From: a virus
Virus record (IMG/VR): IMGVR_UViG_3300025543_000124
Location: 1-31,730 of that record
Length of the DNA: 31,730 nucleotides
Direction: 5' to 3' (one strand)
Shown here: positions 706 through 17,301 of the stretch, piece after piece
Position numbering within the stretch: the first letter of the stretch is position 1
Layout: the number at the start of each line of letters is the position of its first letter
Position numbers and translations under genes: made by a program
The notes under the pieces: generated by a model
Told to the model about the DNA's origin: nothing
Database searches by the model: none
The model's input: the letters and a program-made list of their open reading frames with translations, nothing else

Positions 706-1074
706 ATGGCTAATAAGTTTACCTCAGGCAAAAATGCAATAGCCGATTGTGACAGATGTGGGTTTCAGTTTAAGTTATCACAGTTAAGAAAGTTAACAAT
801 ACGAACAAACAATACTGAGATCAAAGTATGCAAAGAATGTTGGGAACCCGATCACCCACAAAATTTACAAGGTATGTACCCTGTAGAAGATCCGCAAGCA
901 GTGCGTGATCCAAGACCTGATTTAAGCTTTATCCCTGCAGGAGAGTATAGTAGTAGACAAATTCAATGGGGATGGGACCCTGTAGGATTAAATAACCCTT
1001 TGAAGTTAGAGGGATTAGAAGATGACTTACAAGCAAACGGCGGAGTAGGCACGGTTACAGTAACAACAACTTAG
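706..1074 (+). CDS. Small protein with two CxxC pairs (zinc-ribbon-like), unknown role
   Basis: A 122-residue protein with C15-x2-C18 and C42-x2-C45, then a PDHPQN stretch, spaced as in small zinc ribbons or zinc fingers. The rest is acidic and proline-rich, ends in a Thr/Val-rich tail (GGVGTVTVTTT), and shows no membrane segment. It lies between two head-tail connector-type genes, so a minor virion or assembly role is possible, but that is inferred only from position. The start has an AAGG site and sits 9 bases after the preceding stop. I recall similar proteins as unnamed conserved phage proteins. Zinc binding is predicted, not shown. Confidence 0.7.
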   Translation: MANKFTSGKNAIADCDRCGFQFKLSQLRKLTIRTNNTEIKVCKECWEPDHPQNLQGMYPVEDPQAVRDPRPDLSFIPAGEYSSRQIQWGWDPVGLNNPLKLEGLEDDLQANGGVGTVTVTTT

Positions 1075-1263: not shown

Positions 1264-1905
1264 ATGAATTACGCACAATTAGTAGCGGCAATACAGTCAT
1301 ACACTGAAAACCAGTATACAACTACTGATATAAATACGTTTATACAGAATGCAGAACAACGCATATACAATACAGTTCAGTTGCCTGACTTACGTAAAAA
1401 CGTAACAGCTAATATGACAAACGGTAATAAATATATGTCATTACCAAGTGATTGGCTAGCTACATTTAGTATTGCTGTGATTAATGCTAATAACGAATAT
1501 ACATATCTTTTAAACAAAGATGTAAACTTTATTAGAGAAGCTTTTCCTGATACTGATTCACCGTTTTACGGAAAGCCAGAGTACTATGCTATATTTGATG
1601 ATACAACAATGATATTAGGACCAACACCCGATGCAGACTATAATACTGAGCTTCATTACTATTATTACCCGACTTCTATTACTACCGCTGGTAGCAGTTG
1701 GCTTGGTAACAATTTTGACTCTGCTTTACTGTATGGAAGTTTGTTGGAAGCAGCTGCGTTCCTTAAAGAGGAACCTGATACGGTAGCAATGTATACAGCA
1801 CGATATAACGAAGCAATGCAATTATTACAAAACTTAGGTGAAGGCAAAAACAGACGCGATGCTTATCGAAGTGGACAAGAAAGGATACCGGTGATTAACC
1901 GATGA
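1264..1905 (+). CDS. Phage head-tail connector/adaptor-like protein
   Basis: A 213-residue protein beginning MNYAQLVAAIQSYTEN, then TDINTFIQNAEQRIYN and a beta-rich stretch (MSLPSDWLATFSIAV). This is the pattern of the small connector proteins often annotated as phage adaptor or tail tubular proteins. Its overall plan resembles the 227-residue gp4-like protein just upstream: an N-terminal helix pair, a central beta region, and a C-terminal helix with SALLYGSLLEAAAFLKE. The two may be distant paralogues forming successive rings. The start uses AAGGATA, and the stop overlaps the next ATG in an ATGA junction at 1902. The structural role is likely, but the exact ring position is unknown. Confidence 0.65.
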   Translation: MNYAQLVAAIQSYTENQYTTTDINTFIQNAEQRIYNTVQLPDLRKNVTANMTNGNKYMSLPSDWLATFSIAVINANNEYTYLLNKDVNFIREAFPDTDSPFYGKPEYYAIFDDTTMILGPTPDADYNTELHYYYYPTSITTAGSSWLGNNFDSALLYGSLLEAAAFLKEEPDTVAMYTARYNEAMQLLQNLGEGKNRRDAYRSGQERIPVINR

Positions 1906-2190: not shown

Positions 2191-2646
2191 ATGGCAATTT
2201 CTCAAGCAATGTGTACGTCGTTTAAAGTTGAATTGCTTAGTGGCGGTCACAACTTTAACACAACTAACGTAGCTCGAAGCGCAAATACACAAGACGTGTT
2301 TAAGATCGCGTTGTTTACATCATCAGCAACATTAAATGATACAACCACAGCATACTCAACATCAAACGAAGTACCGAGCACAGGTAACTATTCAGCTGGT
2401 GGTAATACACTAACTGTATCAGCTGTTCCTCAAGCATCAAGTACTACAGCAATTTTAGACTTTGATAATACTACATGGTCATCTGCAACAATTACTGCTA
2501 ACGGAGCTTTGATTTATAACAGTACTAACAGTGATACCGCTGTTGCTGTATTAGCATTCGGTGGAGATAAAACTTCAACCAATGGTGACTTTACAATTCA
2601 GTTTCCTGCATTTGATGCTTCTAACGCTATTATTCGTATAGCTTAA
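2191..2646 (+). CDS. Small structural protein, beta-rich (virion surface or decoration candidate)
   Basis: A 151-residue Ser/Thr/Ala/Asn-rich protein with almost no charge clusters and many predicted beta strands. It includes VFKIALFTSSATLNDTTTAY, a GNYSAGGNTLTVSAV segment and an IQFPAFDASNAIIRIA end. This composition is typical of phage virion proteins, and I recall this family (CTSFKVELLSGGHNF, then FKIALFT) as a widespread uncharacterised phage structural protein. It starts right after a GGAG site at the end of the previous gene. It is followed by the 22-residue-repeat protein, so the pair may act together on the particle surface. Its exact place in the virion is unknown. Confidence 0.6.
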   Translation: MAISQAMCTSFKVELLSGGHNFNTTNVARSANTQDVFKIALFTSSATLNDTTTAYSTSNEVPSTGNYSAGGNTLTVSAVPQASSTTAILDFDNTTWSSATITANGALIYNSTNSDTAVAVLAFGGDKTSTNGDFTIQFPAFDASNAIIRIA

Positions 2647-2658
2647 TAGGAACGATCA

Positions 2659-3510
2659 ATGGCATCGTCTACTGAATATATAGGATATGGTGAGGCCCCC
2701 TGGTCTGAAGGTAGTTGGGGTCTAGACGTACTTATAATTTCTGTAGACGGAGTGTCTGCAACAGCGACACTTGGCGATGAAACTGTAGTTGCTAAAGCTA
2801 CTGTAAGTGTTACAGGTAATGCAGGAACTACTGCGCTAGGTGAAGAAACTGTTGTAGCTAAAGCAGTTGTTGAACCTACTGGAGTTAGTGCTACAGGTAA
2901 TGCAGGCGATGTAACTATAGAAGGTATAGCTGCTTTTAGTGTCACTGGAGTAGAAGGAACAGGACAAGAAGGTACTGTAGTAATTGAATTACCTATATTT
3001 GTTTCAGTTACTGGAGAAGAAGCTACTTCTGCATTGGGTGATATAACCCTTGAAACAAATAACCTTATTGATATTACAGGGTTAGTTGGTACAACTCAAT
3101 TAGGTGAAGAAACTGTAGTAGCAGAAAGTAATGTAAGTGTTACTGGAGAAGTAGGTACTACAGCACTTGGTGATGAAACCATAGTTGCTAAAGCTGTTGT
3201 ATTACCACTTGGTATTTCTGGTACAACTCAGTTAGGCGAAGAAACTGTAGTAGCTAAAGCCGTAGTAGAGCCGACAGGAGTTGACGCTACTGGACAAACA
3301 GGCAATGTTATAGTTATATCTAAAGCAGTAGTATTACCTACAGGCGTTGTAGGAACAATGCAGCTTGGTGAAGAAACTGTAATAGCTAAAGCTGATGTTC
3401 CTATTACAGGAGTAAGTGCTACAGGAGATGTGGGTAATGGACGGTTTACTTTAGTGTGGGGTTTAATAGATACTTCACAAAATGCTAACTGGGTACAAAT
3501 AGCAGCATAA
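2659..3510 (+). CDS. Repeat-built fibre-like virion protein (ten 22-residue repeats)
   Basis: A 283-residue protein with three parts. The 31-residue N-terminus is aromatic and Gly-rich (YIGYGEAPWSEGSWG). Residues 32-251 are ten gap-free 22-residue repeats. The 32-residue C-terminus ends VWGLIDTSQNANWVQIAA. The repeat consensus is roughly V-x-G/A-T, x2-LG-(D/E)-ET-V-V-A-K-A, x-V-x-x-TG. Strictly periodic short beta-prone repeats capped at both ends suggest an elongated beta-solenoid or stalk, with repeat number setting its length; this is inference. Related repeat proteins with the same WSEGSWG start and DTSQ end occur, from memory, in other marine phages. It lies between a small virion protein and the tail fibre, which supports a fibre or spike role. 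Confidence 0.6.
   Translation: MASSTEYIGYGEAPWSEGSWGLDVLIISVDGVSATATLGDETVVAKATVSVTGNAGTTALGEETVVAKAVVEPTGVSATGNAGDVTIEGIAAFSVTGVEGTGQEGTVVIELPIFVSVTGEEATSALGDITLETNNLIDITGLVGTTQLGEETVVAESNVSVTGEVGTTALGDETIVAKAVVLPLGISGTTQLGEETVVAKAVVEPTGVDATGQTGNVIVISKAVVLPTGVVGTMQLGEETVIAKADVPITGVSATGDVGNGRFTLVWGLIDTSQNANWVQIAA
2752..3411 (+). repeat. Ten tandem 66-bp coding repeats
   Basis: Residues 32-251 of the fibre-like protein divide into ten units of exactly 22 residues with no gaps. Several units are nearly identical in DNA, for example the stretches coding LGEETVVAKAVVEPTG at repeats 2 and 8. Others have diverged (repeats 3, 4, 5 and 9). Antisense reading of this block stays open over long stretches, which explains spurious minus-strand reading frames here. 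Such DNA can gain or lose whole units by recombination without a frameshift. Confidence 0.9.
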
Positions 3511-3525
3511 ATATAAGGATAGAAG

Positions 3526-3726
3526 ATGTTAGTAAAAGCAAAAGAAATTAATGGTATAATTACCAATAGATACGAGACTCACTTAGAGTGCTCAAACTGT
3601 GGCATGGAAGTTGATGCCGAAGAATATAATTCAGGAACCTGCTCTGATTGTGGTGCCGCGTGGGATGGTAAAAAACACATGACCGTTCACGTAACAAGCG
3701 TACCAGCGACAGGACAATCACAATAA
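3526..3726 (+). CDS. Small zinc-ribbon-like protein
   Basis: A 66-residue protein with four cysteines in two CxxC pairs, C22-x2-C25-G and C39-x2-C42-G, 13 residues apart. This is a textbook zinc-ribbon arrangement. The N-terminus (MLVKAKEINGIITN) and the C-terminus (HMTVHVTSVPATGQSQ) are short beta-prone flanks. It starts after an AAGGATA site and lies just before the tail fibre gene. In phages such small ribbons can be virion components, chaperone-like factors or nucleic-acid binders, and nothing here separates these options. Confidence 0.7.
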   Translation: MLVKAKEINGIITNRYETHLECSNCGMEVDAEEYNSGTCSDCGAAWDGKKHMTVHVTSVPATGQSQ

Positions 3727-3741
3727 TACGAGGTATATAAA

Positions 3742-4875
3742 ATGGCAAGTACATATTCAGATTTAAAATTTGAGTTAATTGGTACTGGCGAACAATCAGG
3801 TACTTGGGGTGTTACAACTAACACCAACTTAGGAACAGCCATTGAAGAGGCTATTACAGGTTCAGCTGATGTTACATTCGCAAGTGCACAAGTAACTCTA
3901 ACATTAACAGATACAAACGCGACTCAAACAGCACGTAATTTGAGACTTAATTTAACAGGTACATCAGGTGGTGCACAAAACTTAATAGTTCCGGCTATTG
4001 AAAAACTATATTTAGTAAACAATGGTTGTGCTGATGCAATTACAGTTAAGAACTCTACCGGTACAGGTATTGCAGTTCCAGCTGGTAAAGCGATGTTAGT
4101 ATTTAATGACGGTACAAACGTAGTTGATGCAATAACTCATCTATCTTCATTGACATTAGCTACAGCATTAGCAGTAGCACAAGGTGGTACAGGGGCTTCT
4201 ACGTTAACTGGATATGTTAAAGGTAATGGCACATCTGCATTTACAGCTCAGTCAGTTCCAATTCCTGTAGCTGACGGTGGTACAGGCGCTACTACTTTAA
4301 CTTCTAATAATGTTATCTTAGGTAACGGTACTTCAGCCCCTAACTTTGTTGCGCCTGGATCATCAGGTAATGTATTAACATCTAATGGTACAACATGGAC
4401 ATCTGCTGCAGCTGCGGCTTTTGATTCTGGAACAAGAATGATGTTTGCTCAAACATCAGCGCCAACTGGATGGACTAAAGATACATCTAATTATGATAAT
4501 CACGCTCTACGAGTTGTTACAGGTGCAGCAAGTACTGGAGGTTCTGTTGACTTTACAACAGCATTTGCATCTCAAACGCCAACTGGTTCTGTAACTATTA
4601 CAAGCGTTACAGGTAGTGCTGGAGATACTACTCTATCGACACCTCAGATTCCAGCCCACAGCCACACTATATCCACTAGGGATGCTTCTGGTGGAACAGG
4701 TTACGCTCAAAGAGCAGGTAATGCAAGTCCTGCCTCAGCAGGCACAAATAATCAAGGTGGAGGCGGATCTCACAATCACCCATTCAGTTTTTCTAGTGGT
4801 TCAGGTACATTTAGTGGTAGTGCAATTAACTTAGCTGTAAAATATTTAGATGTAATTACAGCTACAAAAGATTAA
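3742..4875 (+). CDS. Tail fibre protein with collar-like, His-rich C-terminal tip
   Basis: A 377-residue fibre and likely host receptor-binding protein. The N-terminal part (residues 1-140: DLKFELIGTGEQSGTWGVTT, then NLRLNLTGTSGGAQNLIVPA) is of the type that attaches to a tail. The middle (about 145-230) carries repeated GGTGA modules with NGTSAP strands, common in trimeric fibre shafts. The C-terminus (about 230-377) resembles the phage tail-collar domain: MMFAQTSAPTGWTKD, then PQIPAHSHTIST and GGGGSHNHPF. The two HxH motifs match the metal-binding pattern known in T4 gp12-type tips. Gly/Ser-rich sequence dominates. The gene is followed by two small conserved genes and the oxygenase pair. 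Confidence 0.8.
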   Translation: MASTYSDLKFELIGTGEQSGTWGVTTNTNLGTAIEEAITGSADVTFASAQVTLTLTDTNATQTARNLRLNLTGTSGGAQNLIVPAIEKLYLVNNGCADAITVKNSTGTGIAVPAGKAMLVFNDGTNVVDAITHLSSLTLATALAVAQGGTGASTLTGYVKGNGTSAFTAQSVPIPVADGGTGATTLTSNNVILGNGTSAPNFVAPGSSGNVLTSNGTTWTSAAAAAFDSGTRMMFAQTSAPTGWTKDTSNYDNHALRVVTGAASTGGSVDFTTAFASQTPTGSVTITSVTGSAGDTTLSTPQIPAHSHTISTRDASGGTGYAQRAGNASPASAGTNNQGGGGSHNHPFSFSSGSGTFSGSAINLAVKYLDVITATKD

Positions 4876-4888
4876 TAGAAAGGTGTAA

Positions 4889-5185
4889 ATGAGATTAGAA
4901 CAAGGGACTTATTGTCCTTTATTAAAAAAAGAATGTATTGGTATAAAATGTGCATGGTTCACTAGAGTACAAGGCTATGATACTAATACAGGAAAAGAAG
5001 TTGATGAATATCAATGTGCAATTGCCTGGATGCCTATGTTAATGGTTGAAAATTCCGGACAACAAAGACAAACAGGCGCGGCCGTAGAATCATTCAGAAA
5101 CGAAATGGTTAAAGCTAATGAAAATAGTATTAAGTTGTTAGCTGAAACATCAAAACAAAATTTATTAGGAGACAATAAAAAATGA
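4889..5185 (+). CDS. Conserved small protein with a four-cysteine motif
   Basis: A 98-residue protein whose N-terminal half carries C9-x6-C16-x4-C21-x21-C43 (CPLLKKECIGIKCAWF, then YQCAIAWMPML), followed by a helical Lys/Glu/Asn-rich tail. The four-Cys spacing could hold a metal ion or an Fe-S cluster, which is inference. I recall the family as a recurrent unnamed gene beside tail fibre genes in marine phages. It has an AAAGGTG ribosome site, and its stop overlaps the next ATG (5182). No membrane segment is present. Confidence 0.65.
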   Translation: MRLEQGTYCPLLKKECIGIKCAWFTRVQGYDTNTGKEVDEYQCAIAWMPMLMVENSGQQRQTGAAVESFRNEMVKANENSIKLLAETSKQNLLGDNKK

Positions 5186-5472
5186 GATTAATTGTAATCA
5201 AAGAAACAAATACTGTATTAAAAGATGGTCAAGGTTATAATGATTTGGACTTATCATCAGTTGCATTTCCAGAAAATTTCTGGGCATTACAATGGTATGA
5301 CAATAATACTGGGCATATAGAATATAATAGTCCTATGATTCAAAATGATGAGATTACATCATTACCATCATGGGCAAATGATTGCGTTGCAATCTGGCAA
5401 ACTGCTTATGATGAAGAACAAGCAGCTATAGCAGCAGCAGAAGCAGAGGCACAGCAAGAAATTTCAGAATAG
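5182..5472 (+). CDS. Conserved small phage protein downstream of the tail fibre
   Basis: A 96-residue acidic protein (MRLIVIKETNTVLKDGQGYN, then FWALQWYDNNTGHIEYN) ending in an Ala/Glu-rich helix (EEQAAIAAAEAEAQQEISE). It overlaps the previous gene by an ATGA junction and has a strong TTAGGAGA site. Size, position and the helical C-terminus resemble small tail-fibre accessory or assembly proteins, but no diagnostic motif is visible and this is inference from context. The Trp-rich core (WALQWYD) is typical of an uncharacterised family I have seen in other aquatic phages. Confidence 0.6.
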   Translation: MRLIVIKETNTVLKDGQGYNDLDLSSVAFPENFWALQWYDNNTGHIEYNSPMIQNDEITSLPSWANDCVAIWQTAYDEEQAAIAAAEAEAQQEISE

Positions 5473-5479
5473 CATATAA

Positions 5480-6037
5480 TTGATACAAGAATTACAAGAT
5501 AACTATTATGTAATAGTAGACAATTTTATTACTCCAATACAAGCAAGTGGGTTATATAATACATTTAAAAAAGATATAGAAGATAATCCTCAAGCATTCA
5601 TTAAAGATCCACAATGCCCAAAGTCTTTTGCAATATATAATCATAAACTTTTTTTATCTTTACTGTGTGATAAAGTTAACTTGATGAATAATATTATGCA
5701 AGAATCAATGCTACCTACATACGCATATTCGAGATTATATCAACATGGTGAAGTATTAACAAAACATCTTGATCGTCCATCATGTGAAGTCAGCGTAACT
5801 TTACATTTAGGTGGAGATACTGCTTGGGATATATGGTTTACAAAACCAAATGGTGAAGCAGTTAATTACAATTTAAAACCTGGGCAAGCTGCTATATACT
5901 TAGGCATGGTATCAGAACACTGGAGAGATGCTTATATTGGAGATAATTATGGTCAGGTATTTTTACATTATGTAAGAGCTAATGGCGAACACTGGCAACA
6001 TTACTATGATCGAGTAAATAATGGATGCCTTAGATAA
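5480..6037 (+). CDS. 2-oxoglutarate/Fe(II)-dependent oxygenase
   Basis: A 185-residue non-heme iron oxygenase of the prolyl-4-hydroxylase-like fold. Visible iron ligands are H96-x-D98 (TKHLDRPSCEVSVTLHLGG) and the distal H147 (SEHWRDAY), followed by GQVFLHYV on the last core strand. R149 or R166 may contact 2-oxoglutarate. The family hydroxylates protein side chains, nucleic acids or small molecules, and the substrate here is unknown. The start must be TTG at 5480, because an in-frame TAA immediately precedes it and no other start codon keeps the N-terminal strand. The gene overlaps the second oxygenase by 17 bases. Location straight after the tail fibre cluster suggests a virion or host-surface substrate, which is inference. 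Confidence 0.85.
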   Translation: MIQELQDNYYVIVDNFITPIQASGLYNTFKKDIEDNPQAFIKDPQCPKSFAIYNHKLFLSLLCDKVNLMNNIMQESMLPTYAYSRLYQHGEVLTKHLDRPSCEVSVTLHLGGDTAWDIWFTKPNGEAVNYNLKPGQAAIYLGMVSEHWRDAYIGDNYGQVFLHYVRANGEHWQHYYDRVNNGCLR

Positions 6038-6578
6038 ATATATTATAGTAATAAAAAACATTATCCCACATCAATTATGTGATGACATTTTAAATGAATA
6101 CAAAGATTCTAATGAATGGCAAGAATCTGGGGTTAGTAATGGTGAATCAAACAAGACTATAAGAAACTGTGATACTATACAAATATCACAACCATTTGTA
6201 ATACGAGATAACAATAATAGATTTAAAATAGATCAGGAATTATTTCAAGTTGCTGCTAATTGCATTAACCAATATAATAATTTATTTCAACATAGTTCTA
6301 TACAACAAGATACAGGATATGAATTATTAAGATACAAAGAAAAGAGTTTTTATATACAACATGTTGATTCTTTTTTACAAGCACCTAGATTAGTCAGTTG
6401 TTCTTTACATTTAAATGATGATTATGAAGGTGGTGAATTTGCTTTTTTTAATAGAACATTAAAGTATAAATTAAACAAGGGAGATGTATTAATGTTTCCC
6501 TCTACATTTATGTACCCACATGAAGTTATGCCTGTAACAAAAGGAACTAGATATTCAATAATAACTTGGTTTAGATGA
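6021..6578 (+). CDS. 2-oxoglutarate/Fe(II)-dependent oxygenase (prolyl-4-hydroxylase-like)
   Basis: A second, divergent 185-residue oxygenase. The iron-binding triad is H114-x-D116 (YIQHVDSF) and H167 (MYPHEVMPV), with R177 exactly ten residues after the distal His in the place of the 2-oxoglutarate-binding Arg/Lys (KGTRYSIITWF). DDYEGGEFAFF and KGDVLMFPSTF are typical of the P4H/PKHD-type family. The complete set of key residues argues that it is active. It shares little sequence with its upstream neighbour apart from the fold, so it is not a recent tandem duplicate. The ATG at 6021 lies inside the end of the first oxygenase, so they are probably co-translated. The substrate is unknown. Confidence 0.9.
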   Translation: MDALDKYIIVIKNIIPHQLCDDILNEYKDSNEWQESGVSNGESNKTIRNCDTIQISQPFVIRDNNNRFKIDQELFQVAANCINQYNNLFQHSSIQQDTGYELLRYKEKSFYIQHVDSFLQAPRLVSCSLHLNDDYEGGEFAFFNRTLKYKLNKGDVLMFPSTFMYPHEVMPVTKGTRYSIITWFR

Positions 6579-9516: not shown

Positions 9517-11685
9517 ATGGCACTAAAAAAATTAATATTTAAACCAGGTATCAACCGGGATAATACAAATTATGCTAATGAAGGTGGTTGGTATGAAATG
9601 GATAAAGTTCGGTTTCGTTCTGGTTTTGCTGAGAAAATTGGTGGGTGGCAAGTTCTAAACTTTGAACCCTATGCTGGACAATGTCGTAGCTTATATAATT
9701 ACCGAACAACAGACGGCAGCATAATTACAGGACTAGGTACCAGTGAAAAGTTTTATGTGCTTGTTGGAACAGCTCTATACGATATAACTCCTGTTCGAGT
9801 TATTTACACTTCAGCGACTACACCCTCAACAGATAATTGTTTTGACACAACGACAGGGTCTACTACAGTCACTGTAACTCTTGTTGGACATGGCGCTAAT
9901 GATGGAGATTATGTTACTTTTGCAGGGGCTACTGCTGTAGGCGGTGTTCCATCAGGTGAACTAAATACTGAACATCAAGTATCTAATGTTACGGCGACAA
10001 CCTTTGATATAACGGTAACAACAGCTGCAACTTCTACTGTATCAGGTGGAGGCGGTACGTCTATTACAGCAACTTTTCAAATTCCTATTGGCTTTGGGGG
10101 TAACATTTATGGTTATGGTTGGGGTACAGGAACATGGAGCCGAAGTACATGGGGTTCTGCGTCGACTAATCCAGTCTTACTCCCTCCACGAATTATTTTC
10201 CAAGATCAATTTAACAATGATTTAATCTGGAATATCCAAGCAGGAGATATTTATTATTGGGATTACACTTCTAATTTTAGTAACATTTCTGTTGGACTAA
10301 ATACTTTAGCAGGTTCCCGTGCTGTACCTGAACAAGTAGGTGAAGTTATGTTTGCTCCAAGTGGACATCTTCTTGCTTTATCTTGTACTGAATATGGAAG
10401 AACAACAACTACAGGCGCAGTTATAAACTCAATTACACGATCAGGAACAACAGCAACGATTACAACAAATACATCACACAGTCTATCTCCATTAGATTGG
10501 GTTGAGTTTAGCGGACAAGCTCCACAAGTTTATCAAGGCGAATACCAAGTTGTAGCCACTCCTACATCAACAACGTTTACAGTTACCTTACCGTATGACC
10601 CAGGTTCAAATGCAACGACTGTAGGAACCTTTGTATCGATTGATTATTCAGGAAACTTTGACCCATTACTTATTCGCTGGGCTAACGTTGATCCTGATAT
10701 TGGACCTCAGCCTGAAGAATGGAAACCTGAAATAACTAATTCAGCAGGATTCTTACGAGTAAAAGACGGGTCTCAAATTATTGCAGGTTATAAAACAAGA
10801 CAAGAGATTCTTATATTTACTGATACAGCAATTAATACACTTCAATTTTTAGGAACTACGGAAGTATTTAGTTTAAATTTAATATCTAATAACATTAACA
10901 TTGTTGGACCTAATGCTGTGGCTGAAGCTAATAATATAGTTTTCTGGATGGGGCACGATCAGTTTTTTATCTATGATGGTCGAGTAAATACCTTACCTTG
11001 CTCACTACGCCAATACATCTTTACTGATATTAATTTAGGTCAAAGCCAACTTATATTTGCAGGAACAAACCGAGAGTTTAATGAAATTATTTGGTTCTAT
11101 TGTTCAGCTAATTCTCCAAGTATCAATCGTTATGTCATTTACAATTACCAAGAACAGATTTGGTATTATGGTACATTAAATAGAACAGCATGGTTTGATT
11201 CTCAAATATTAACTTCTCCATTGGCTGCAAGTAATGGGTATATTTATGAACACGAAATTGGCAACGATGATGGTCAACCTACAGGACAAGCGCCACTACC
11301 TATCAATGCATACATACAATCTTCAGACATGGCCATTGAAGACGGAGAAAATTTTATCTTAACTAAACGAGTTATCCCTGATGTGAACTTTACAAACTCA
11401 AGTACTACAAACTCGGTAACAGGAGCGACCATCGTGCCAGAAGTTGAGATGACGGTTGGTGTACGTAACTTCCCAGGAGCTTCTAATAATACAAGTGATG
11501 TTGCAGGGAATACTTTAACAAGAGATGTGATTACTACGGCATCAATAAACCAATATACAAACCAAGTCTTTGTAAGAGCACGCGGTCGTCAGATGAATTT
11601 TAAAATAGCGTCAAATACAGTAGGAACTCAATGGCAGCTAGGTGCTGTACGTGTTGACTTTAGACCTGATGGAAGGAGAGGATAA
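9517..11685 (+). CDS. Tail hub / packaged-DNA stabilisation protein, P22 gp10-like
   Basis: A 722-residue structural protein beginning with a block that I recognise from gp10-like stabilisation proteins of marine podoviruses: KKLIFKPGINRDNTNYANEG, then GWYEMDKVRFRSGFAEKIGGW (residues 4-44). The body is beta-rich and includes Ig-like stretches (TTTGSTTVTVTLVGHGANDG near 110-130; AVINSITRSGTTATITTNTS near 300-320). The C-terminus ends VRARGRQMNFKIASN, then WQLGAVRVDFRPDGRRG. Such proteins form the nozzle below the gp4-like adaptor and plug DNA after packaging. It has a GAGGATA site and a TAATG junction to the next small gene. A T7 gp12-like tubular protein B label would describe the same role. 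Confidence 0.8.
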   Translation: MALKKLIFKPGINRDNTNYANEGGWYEMDKVRFRSGFAEKIGGWQVLNFEPYAGQCRSLYNYRTTDGSIITGLGTSEKFYVLVGTALYDITPVRVIYTSATTPSTDNCFDTTTGSTTVTVTLVGHGANDGDYVTFAGATAVGGVPSGELNTEHQVSNVTATTFDITVTTAATSTVSGGGGTSITATFQIPIGFGGNIYGYGWGTGTWSRSTWGSASTNPVLLPPRIIFQDQFNNDLIWNIQAGDIYYWDYTSNFSNISVGLNTLAGSRAVPEQVGEVMFAPSGHLLALSCTEYGRTTTTGAVINSITRSGTTATITTNTSHSLSPLDWVEFSGQAPQVYQGEYQVVATPTSTTFTVTLPYDPGSNATTVGTFVSIDYSGNFDPLLIRWANVDPDIGPQPEEWKPEITNSAGFLRVKDGSQIIAGYKTRQEILIFTDTAINTLQFLGTTEVFSLNLISNNINIVGPNAVAEANNIVFWMGHDQFFIYDGRVNTLPCSLRQYIFTDINLGQSQLIFAGTNREFNEIIWFYCSANSPSINRYVIYNYQEQIWYYGTLNRTAWFDSQILTSPLAASNGYIYEHEIGNDDGQPTGQAPLPINAYIQSSDMAIEDGENFILTKRVIPDVNFTNSSTTNSVTGATIVPEVEMTVGVRNFPGASNNTSDVAGNTLTRDVITTASINQYTNQVFVRARGRQMNFKIASNTVGTQWQLGAVRVDFRPDGRRG

Positions 11686-11870
11686 TGGCTATTATAACTT
11701 CAACAAAAGGACCTAACTTAACTAATCCAAGTTCTGAATACCAAAGAGAACAGATGCTTCAGTTAGTCAATCAGCTTCGTATTTATTTTAATACTATTGA
11801 TGCTAATAACAATGCAATTAAAACTAGGGCTGACGGACTAAATACATTGCACTGGTTAGGAGATTATTAA
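11685..11870 (+). CDS. Small conserved virion-region protein (61 residues)
   Basis: A 61-residue protein in a coupled run: its ATG overlaps the previous stop (TAATG), and its own stop overlaps the next ATG in the same way. The N-terminus is flexible (MAIITSTKGPNLTNPSSEYQ), followed by an amphipathic helix (REQMLQLVNQLRIYFNTIDA) and a short end, LHWLGDY. The helix could form a small coiled-coil oligomer. I recall this as a recurrent unnamed gene after the tail hub in related phages. No function can be assigned. Confidence 0.6.
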   Translation: MAIITSTKGPNLTNPSSEYQREQMLQLVNQLRIYFNTIDANNNAIKTRADGLNTLHWLGDY

Positions 11871-15719: not shown

Positions 15720-16132
15720 AAAGATTAGAAGTTGTAAGTCCTAATCACATATATCATGTTTGGGACAAAGTAAAAGATTATTTAGCCTCGGGGTTAGAAT
15801 TATCAGGTGGAGAATATAATGTTGACCACTTAAAATTATATCTAACTTCAGGACAACAAACACTGTTGATTGTTATAGATGATGAACAAAAAATTCACGG
15901 TGCATTTACAATTGAAATAACTAATTTTCCTAATGAACGTATAGCATTTACTACGTCAGTAGGTGGAAAAGCAATAACAGAGCAATACCTGTGGGAAGAA
16001 TACGAAAACTGGCTCCGAAATAATGGGGTTACTATGGTTAGAGGAGCTGCTCACGAAACGGTAGCAAGGCTTTGGAGAAGAAAATTTGGTGTACAAAGTA
16101 GATACATCATTGTGGAGAAAAAATTAAAATGA
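15716..16132 (+). CDS. T7 gp13-like small virion protein, possible GNAT fold
   Basis: A 138-residue protein read from TTG at 15716, which overlaps the previous stop as TTGA. The first codons, KRLEVVSPNHIYHVWDKVKD, look like a genuine N-terminus. The order (helix, strands TLLIVIDDEQKIHGAFTIEI, then a late helix and strand ETVARLWRRKFG, SRYIIVEKKL) resembles an acetyltransferase-like core without a clear CoA-binding loop. T7 gp13, also 138 residues and placed just ahead of the ejection proteins gp14-16, has to my recollection a similar fold. The analogy rests on length, position and pattern, not an alignment. An active acetyltransferase is possible but not supported by key residues. Confidence 0.45.
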   Translation: MKRLEVVSPNHIYHVWDKVKDYLASGLELSGGEYNVDHLKLYLTSGQQTLLIVIDDEQKIHGAFTIEITNFPNERIAFTTSVGGKAITEQYLWEEYENWLRNNGVTMVRGAAHETVARLWRRKFGVQSRYIIVEKKLK

Positions 16133-17301
16133 TTAACTTATTTAAAGTATTTAAAACACTTATTGGTTTAGACCAAGACTTCTTTACATTCTGGGGTGGA
16201 GGCTCATCAGGAGGTGGCGGTGGTACTTCTGAAACTAAGTCTGTGACTACGAACTTGCCTGAATATGCACAGCCGTTCTATGAAGAACTCTTAAAGCAAT
16301 CTGGTAAACAAATTTATAAAACAGATTCTTCAGGTAGAGTAATTGGTGTCAAAGAATATCAACCCTACACAGGCCAACGTGTAGCTCCATTCTCAGCAGA
16401 ACAACAAGCAGTGCAACAAGAAGTTGCGGGTATGACTACGCCAGGTGCTTTTCAAACAGCATCAGGAACATTAGGAACAGTAGGAGCCCAAGCAGGCACT
16501 GCAGCTCAACAAGGTTTAACTCAAGCATTAGCTTATCAACCAGGTACGATTACTCCACAACAAGTACAAACGGGTCAATTTACTCAGCCCGGTGTAGCTC
16601 AAAGCTATATGGACCCTTATACACAAGCGGTCGTTGATGTACAAAAACGTGAAGCGCAAAGATTAGCAGACATACAAAAACAACAAGCAGCTCAAGCTTC
16701 TATTGGACGCGGCACTTTTGGTGGGGGCCGTCAGGCTTTAATGCAGACAGAACAAGATCGTGCAACACAAGACTTATTAAATAAAATACAAGCTGAAGGT
16801 GGAACAAGAGCATTCCAACAGGCACAACAAGCTTTCCAAGCTGACCAAGCAAGACAACTACAAGCAGCGCAGGCTAACCAAGCAGCTCAGATGCAAGCAG
16901 CACAACTCGGTCAACAGGCCCAACAATTTGGTGCAGGACTAGGCAAAGATATAGGACTAGCTGGATTAGCAACAGGGTTAGAGACAGGTAAGGCAACAGG
17001 TCAATTAGGTGCGACACAGCAGATGGCAGATCTTGAAAGATTAAAAGCACAAGCAGCCTCAGGTGCTGAGAAGCAAGCACTACAACAAGAGATTGATAAC
17101 TTAGCTTACCAACAATACAAAGAACAACAAGATTATCAAAGAGCATTACTCGAGTATCAATCAAATATTCTACGAGGTACTGCAGGTGCATTGGGTTCAA
17201 CTCAGGTGGCTTACGCACCCGCTCCAAGCTTAGCCTCACAACTCGGTGGTCTAGGTCTAGCAGGTCTAGGTTTATATAATGTACTAGGTAAACAAGGTTA
17301 A
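16129..17301 (+). CDS. Putative ejection protein, Gln/Ala-rich
   Basis: A 390-residue protein. A short N-terminal hydrophobic part (MINLFKVFKTLIGLDQDFFT) is followed by a Gly run (24-33), then VTTNLPEYAQPFYEELLKQS. A long Gln/Ala-rich helical region (about 150-330) is coiled-coil-prone (QAQQAFQADQARQLQAAQAN). The C-terminus is hydrophobic and Gly/Leu-rich (LGGLGLAGLGLYNVLG). This composition resembles podovirus internal core proteins of the T7 gp14 or P22 gp7/gp20 kind, which leave the capsid and line a channel across the envelope. That role is inferred from composition and from its position between a gp13-like gene and two very large genes. It is ATGA-coupled to the gene before it. Confidence 0.6.
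   Translation: MINLFKVFKTLIGLDQDFFTFWGGGSSGGGGGTSETKSVTTNLPEYAQPFYEELLKQSGKQIYKTDSSGRVIGVKEYQPYTGQRVAPFSAEQQAVQQEVAGMTTPGAFQTASGTLGTVGAQAGTAAQQGLTQALAYQPGTITPQQVQTGQFTQPGVAQSYMDPYTQAVVDVQKREAQRLADIQKQQAAQASIGRGTFGGGRQALMQTEQDRATQDLLNKIQAEGGTRAFQQAQQAFQADQARQLQAAQANQAAQMQAAQLGQQAQQFGAGLGKDIGLAGLATGLETGKATGQLGATQQMADLERLKAQAASGAEKQALQQEIDNLAYQQYKEQQDYQRALLEYQSNILRGTAGALGSTQVAYAPAPSLASQLGGLGLAGLGLYNVLGKQG

Follow-up and report, generated by a model that had tools for sequence, protein, structure and literature searches.

Organization of the repeat-array locus

The window analysed here comprises a whole 31.7-kb virus record (31,730 nucleotides), for the first 25 kb of which a megablast comparison with 50,697 phage records found no match. 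A gene for a repeat-array protein of 283 aa is located on the plus strand at 2659..3510, starts with ATG and is preceded by a Shine-Dalgarno-like AGGAA (2648..2652, +), read from the sequence six bases 5' of the start codon. The protein is constructed from a Trp/Gly-rich N-cap with the W/G motif GYGEAPWSEGSWG (residues 1-31; 2659..2751, +), ten 22-residue units with a 66-bp period (residues 32-251; 2752..3411, +) and a C-cap ending in VWGLIDTSQNANWVQIAA (residues 252-283; 3412..3507, +). This gap-free division and the two distinct caps had been proposed in an earlier note on this DNA and were confirmed in the open reading frame, as was the strict phase across diverged copies: at an offset of 22 residues the array is 38.3% identical to itself, whereas 20,000 shuffles of its residues averaged 9.6% and never exceeded 17.6%. 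The identity at an offset of 44 is as high (38.1%), and therefore some two-unit alternation is present in the window array. The same note had described near-identical DNA units, which is wrong for this array, whose units are pairwise 36-76% identical in DNA and 23-86% in protein. Tandem Repeats Finder (minimum score 30) reported no array at 2659-3510. The protein matched no PHROG and no Pfam family above the cut-off in a scan to E <= 1, and the profile comparison with the PDB returned 6u83 alone (E 0.22).

The array gene lies in a tail-module setting, where the adaptor, fibre-like, nozzle-like and ejection genes are co-directional with it. According to Pfam/PHROG matches, a SU10-type adaptor-like protein is encoded at 13-696, and is followed by a small CDRCGF-type Cys-rich protein of 122 aa with a half-unit C-terminus (706..1074, +) and by a SU10-type adaptor protein of the tail/connector module (1264..1905, +; PF24175, E 1.7e-27; phrog_2941), whose match to the PDB adaptor 7z47 is weak (E 0.063). 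Directly upstream of the array gene stands the gene of a phrog_644 protein (2191..2646, +), a conserved neighbour which served as the survey anchor. A small zinc-ribbon-like protein (3526..3726, +) is encoded between the array and fibre-like genes; its C-terminus HVTSVPATGQSQ is weakly unit-like by eye, and its nearer relatives have a C-terminus close to HVTSVPASGQSS, which weakly resembles a unit junction. The next protein (3742..4875, +), which we take to be fibre-like from tail-fibre tip motifs in its sequence, matches phrog_31104, a PHROG of unknown function.

Further downstream, an endolysin and virion structural proteins are encoded, among them a tail nozzle-like virion protein (9517..11685, +; phrog_3287 'virion structural protein', E 1.3e-56; PDB 9nwi_Y, E 7.8e-15), as well as an ejection-type protein (16129-17301). 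The term nozzle-like is a label given here, PDB 9nwi_Y (six chains) being titled 'Capsid and scaffold protein'. Adjoining ORFs at 5480-6578 match PHROGs labelled as ferrochelatase and 2OG-Fe(II) oxygenase, a pairing that PMC9599517 describes in HTVC023P-type pelagiphages.

A widespread family of 22-residue repeat proteins

Relatives of the array protein were found by tblastn in five phage records, including HTVC023P gp68 and CRP-901 gp53, and every one of them is annotated as hypothetical. A search of viral contigs yielded 10 loci with one query and 142 with another, the best 80 of these 142 being retained for analysis. A genome collection gave a single match, L205, a contig of 7 kb that had been binned with a Gammaproteobacteria MAG and is probably a stray phage contig. 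A total of 127 loci, chosen without L011, L016, L017 and L096-L125, contributed 128 complete array ORFs, and clustering by shared 6-mers reduced these to 69 representatives; L008 and L199 are the same contig, and pair counts were made without L199.

The representatives carry 5 to about 46 units, W/G caps occasionally being counted as a unit. Distances from unit to unit amount to 22 residues in 678 of 757 cases, 24 in 26 and 23 in 10, the remainder being mostly larger owing to skipped units or inserts; in the listed 24-residue units the extra length lies mostly between positions 13 and 19, as judged by eye. In the consensus, Gly occupies position 8 in 94% and position 22 in 85%, and positions 10-12-14-16-18-20 alternate hydrophobic or small residues.

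Sorted by simple patterns, the N-caps fall into a W/G type (49), an MF..PFSSAPF type (12) and others (8). In many relatives the W/G N-cap reads GWGRGTWGxGxWG, and W/G motifs occur inside some arrays too. Five of the eight other caps hold a domain that looks like a cupredoxin; an N-terminal domain of this kind, with a His/Cys/His/Met pattern discerned by eye, is seen in the arrays of L029, L030, L057, L062, L074, L084, L086 and L090. The C-cap pattern, defined as a VW-like motif together with at least one Asp-x-x-Gln...Trp/Tyr-like motif within the last 60 residues, is present in 61 of the 69 representatives, and seven of the other eight have at least three of the 11-residue motifs which, in up to about five copies, make up the C-cap in relatives. 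The eighth is a 502-aa ORF of L018, where another array ORF has the C-cap; the two (1384-2892 and the second) look like one long array split in two. The L010 protein encoded at 4665-5147 carries the C-cap motif DTYQNANWVQI but another tandem repeat, a combination which suggests that the C-cap is an exchangeable module.

The W/G motif of the array N-cap recurs as GWGTGTWSRSTWG at 10117-10155 in the nozzle-like protein, which was found in 23 of 51 records searched and bears the motif in 15 of the 23. It is present in the nozzle-like proteins of L010, L022, L028 and HTVC023P despite other repeat-protein caps. It is absent in L031, though the array there has W/G motifs, in L030, L057, L074, L084 and L090, where the arrays have W/G motifs and an extra N-domain, and also in MW202675 and in L020, where the protein is a 174-aa fragment. 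The motif occurs irrespective of cap type, and a simple docking of the array cap with the nozzle-like protein through paired motifs is unsupported.

When 25 family members were compared with PHROGs, two PHROGs matched, each with at most two members and both without description. A Pfam CTD match in one of the 25 (E 0.0032, in a scan to E <= 0.01) looks like chance. A search of one literature library on phage 22-residue repeats, fibre repeat-number variation and pelagiphage virion proteomics returned, in the excerpts it offers, no published account of the family, and the accessible portions of PMC10149686 (on CRP-901) and PMC10386132 contain nothing on it. The array belongs to a real, widespread repeat family, for which neither Pfam nor PHROGs holds a fitting model; it is a large family of marine phages, in which the N-caps are swappable and most members share the C-cap.

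Variation in unit number and selection

The in-frame length variation that the earlier note had supposed was borne out, and the comparison of repeat counts among relatives, which it had named as a test of its own proposal, found counts that vary: close relatives differ by whole units, L135 and L134 by 66 bp. The comparison covered 170 array-gene pairs with both flanks aligned. At 99-100% flank identity length differs in 3 of 62 pairs, the other 59 keeping their count, at 95-99% in 1 of 19 and at 90-95% in 5 of 27, and all nine of these differences are multiples of 22 residues. With more distant flanks, length differs in 26 of 44 pairs at 85-90% (6 by multiples of 22) and in 11 of 18 at 80-85% (1 by a multiple of 22).

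The three closest differing pairs set L135, with 15 units, against L133, L134 and L136, identical genes with 16; these genes are flanked by identical sequence over 460 bp upstream and 400 bp downstream and differ by exactly one 66-bp unit, possibly through a collapse in short-read assembly. A three-unit difference separates L022 from L028. The window and L001 have 10 units each and L002 has 13, the flanks of window and L002 being about 96% identical; units 5 and 6 of L002 are 98.5% identical in DNA, and its first three and last three units best match the first three and last three of the window. L032 is a partner in each of the remaining four close pairs, in which the 22-residue difference lies within the C-terminal 11-residue motifs and not in the array, as it does between L063 and L064. 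Array changes account for only five of the nine close pairs, and length therefore changes in two places.

Purifying selection acts on the array genes of relatives, with a median dN/dS of 0.13 in 39 same-length, non-independent pairs that are 85-98.5% identical; the 15 pairs listed come from groups other than the window's own. Divergence between the window and L002 is unevenly distributed: identity amounts to 94-99% over 292-2541, 76-85% over 2542-3291, which is mostly array, 92-98% over 3292-3791 and 66-84% over 3792-5291, which covers the fibre-like gene and beyond. L001 is otherwise nearly identical to the window, including an identical array, and its differences are clustered at 946-1195 and 4446-4945, the latter patch covering the 3' end of the fibre-like gene, the second divergence hot spot. 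Host-contact genes usually show concentrated divergence, and the focus on array and fibre-like gene indirectly fits genes of this kind.

Predicted fold of the array

The monomer structure prediction that had been called for earlier was performed with AlphaFold2 on the window protein and an alignment of 40 rows, composed of relatives in full length and of stretches taken unchanged from longer arrays, and it yielded a beta-solenoid instead of a disordered chain, to which the known solenoid bias of the method applies. The mean pLDDT was 69.0 and the pTM 0.64; ten-residue blocks over residues 31-250 range from 67 to 83 in pLDDT, and residues 1-25 and 267-283 fall below 50. The five models vary in confidence from 69.0 down to 46.9, and a run with 23 rows was poorer (mean pLDDT 57.7). 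In the modelled unit, strands occupy about positions 2-7 and 10-16, with a short one near 19-21 and turns at Gly 8 and Gly 22; the pattern becomes irregular beyond about residue 182, where strands run together.

According to Pratt et al. 2025 (PMC11795689), AlphaFold2 folds perfect repeats into solenoids that are confident but unrealistic, a worry which is partly eased here because the window repeats are diverged and not perfect. Glu or Asp at the inward-alternating position 10, found in 20% of 826 units, is a suspicious feature of the kind these authors caution against. Foldseek returned no match against the PDB at E <= 0.001. On re-alignment of 72 chains with VIA, CsgA 8c50 came out on top (Z 24.6, rmsd 8.1), ahead of numerous beta-helices with Z 13-14, P22-type tailspikes among them. 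In BFVD, the first model matched the phage protein A0A6J5P871 with a TM of 0.81, only the first BFVD match having E <= 0.001; the second model again had this protein on top, with a TM of just 0.64. On the strength of these models, the array is likely to fold as a beta-solenoid.

Half-unit tails on small proteins

The half-unit tail LQANGGVGTVTVTTT is situated at the extreme C-terminus of ORF 706-1074 (1027..1071, +) and corresponds to about the first 15 residues of an array unit, the domain of this protein reading as zinc-ribbon-like. Homologues of query residues 1-95 numbered 76 distinct sequences, many of them interrelated. In 50 of the 76 the tail scores above the 99th percentile of the protein's own shuffled ends, and 43 of those 50 have it at an identical spacing from the stop. 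Six homologues are entirely without the tail (L180, L184, L189, L195, L199, L200) and others have a weaker one; L180, L195, L199 and L200 nevertheless have arrays, and these tail-less cases count against an obligate role of the tail. By mean majority-residue frequency over 77 sequences, the tail (0.58) is more strongly conserved than the preceding linker (0.41) and comes close to the domain (0.64).

A tail score of at least 12 is reached by 47 of 74 family members versus 7 of 3138 other mechanical ORFs. One of these seven (L046) looks like a diverged member of the family, and the other six (L101, L103, L106, L108, L109, L110) are small proteins encoded directly 3' of the nozzle-like gene. By BLAST the six comprise two kinds, L106/L108/L109/L110 (68-89% identical) and L101/L103 (55-58%), between which only the last 14-16 residues, that is, the half unit, align. 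In the window itself, the small ORF 11685-11870, which follows the nozzle-like gene, ends without such a tail.

Among six contigs with an ORF706 homologue on which the array was initially out of view, five have an array elsewhere (G051, G052, G056, G057, G058; G056 and G057 encode the same proteins), and none was found on G059, a 15-kb fragment. By the shuffle test, G051, G056 and G057 (L158, L164) have weak tails. Tail and array are both present in G049 and G055, G020 has tails at both positions besides its array, and in G054 (L140) an array is accompanied by a tail offset by one residue. In HTVC023P and G019 the tail that accompanies the array is degenerate, and in DSL-LC04 and MW202675, which also have an array, no tail is clearly recognizable. 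G008 encodes a repeat protein of another type, with neither array nor tail above threshold. In CRP-901, an ORF706-type domain is fused to the array, the domain match being weak (E 7e-4, 34% identity).

The tail was also compared with the array of its own genome. For 38 records of the ORF706 group, 24 of 5000 permutations reached the observed value with the best unit and 89 of 5000 with the mean; the own array ranked first in only 4 of 38 (best unit) and 1 of 38 (mean). A second tail group of 14, which includes chance ORFs and misassigned members, gave 6 and 9 of 5000. The permutations, which ignore shared ancestry, give a hint that tails are slightly closer to their own genome's array than to others'.

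The fusion, together with the conservation, suggests a working relation between tail and array. A plausible hypothesis is that the half-unit tail docks onto the end of the solenoid, and the two might also share descent without interaction. A broader proposal, less likely true than not, is that the 22-residue coil serves as a shared plug-and-socket: at least three kinds of small protein, namely the ORF 706-1074 family and the two kinds encoded directly 3' of the nozzle-like gene, would end in a half coil that completes or caps the solenoid, the array would be a variable rod clamped to the tail, and CRP-901 would have both halves fused.

Proposed function and alternatives

At a probability of about 0.58, we infer that the product of the array gene is a beta-fibre of adjustable length associated with the virion tail of a marine podovirus-like phage, both the fold and the location in the virion forming part of this inference. 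Each 22-residue unit would form one coil that turns at the Gly residues of positions 8 and 22, and a stack of ten such coils would make a rod between the W/G-rich N-cap and the Asp-x-x-Gln...Trp C-cap. The number of units would set the length of the rod and would change in frame, most simply via unequal recombination between neighbouring units. The rod would probably space or support the host-contact end of the tail, jointly with the product of the adjacent fibre-like gene.

Most phage fibres are trimers, and the units may instead build the shaft of a trimeric beta-fibre, as a triple beta-spiral or trimeric beta-helix, with the function unchanged. The acidic position 10 suits a single-chain core poorly and a monomer prediction by AlphaFold2 cannot reveal a trimer, but the single-chain model closes a three-strand coil at moderate confidence, and we regard the trimeric shaft as rather unlikely. 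Less probable again is a decoration protein of the head or neck in place of a tail fibre. The array gene stands in one co-directional block downstream of the connector and phrog_644 genes, and head fibres can be repeat proteins as well; against this, the array co-diverges with the adjacent fibre-like gene in the comparison with L002 and shares its W/G motif with the nozzle-like protein, neither of which is decisive.

It is quite improbable that the protein is secreted during infection to form an extracellular, curli-like fibre instead of a part of the virion. The top VIA match is CsgA, though at the high rmsd given above, parts of PMC9599517 report curli secretion genes in some pelagiphages, and CsgG was found in 2 of 31 searched records (L206 and L207, the records of L006 and L088). 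However, CsgG was not found in the other 29, which include the window and may be fragments, the curlin-repeat family (Curlin_rpt) of Pfam was detected neither in the protein (E <= 1) nor in 25 members (E <= 0.01), and the array gene lies in the midst of tail genes. Slippage expansion of a low-complexity repeat with little function would account for the varying unit number but is scarcely tenable in view of the diverged units in strict phase, the median dN/dS of relatives, and the widely shared caps and context.

The tail-associated fibre so proposed gives a name to a repeat-fibre family that is widespread among marine phages, is as yet uncharacterised and varies by whole 22-residue steps, and which could be utilized as a natural system for the effect of fibre length on adsorption. 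The half-unit tail on ORF 706-1074 and on other small proteins is new here. Its conservation offers a simple, testable idea of how such a rod may be anchored on the virion; it also provides a sequence marker by which several 'hypothetical' genes of HTVC023P-like and related phages could be named.

Comparison with known systems

The array model resembles the right-handed beta-helix tailspikes and related beta-helices of P22, HK620 and Det7 in its predicted stacked coils, with VIA Z of about 13-14 over about 230-250 residues, whereas the sequence identity is about 6-10%, the 22-residue unit is far more regular, the unit number varies greatly, and the protein matches no tailspike family in Pfam or PHROGs. 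CsgA, like the predicted array, is a beta-solenoid of tandem coils, and its unit length is similar to that of the array; its identity to the array is 5% in the 8c50 alignment, and the differences extend to the missing curlin-repeat match and the lack of CsgG in the window record. With the tail apparatus of SU10/Kuravirus, the window has the adaptor in common, through its PF24175 family match and its weak PDB match to 7z47.

Homologous counterparts are DSL-LC04 WJZ48131.1, HTVC023P gp68 and CRP-901 gp53, all annotated as 'hypothetical protein', which have the same 22-residue repeat as the window protein and whose genes are located near adaptor, nozzle-like or fibre genes, as in the window. Their unit numbers differ from that of the window, the arrays of HTVC023P and CRP-901 possess other N-caps, and in CRP-901, unlike the window, the array and the ORF706-type domain are joined in one protein.
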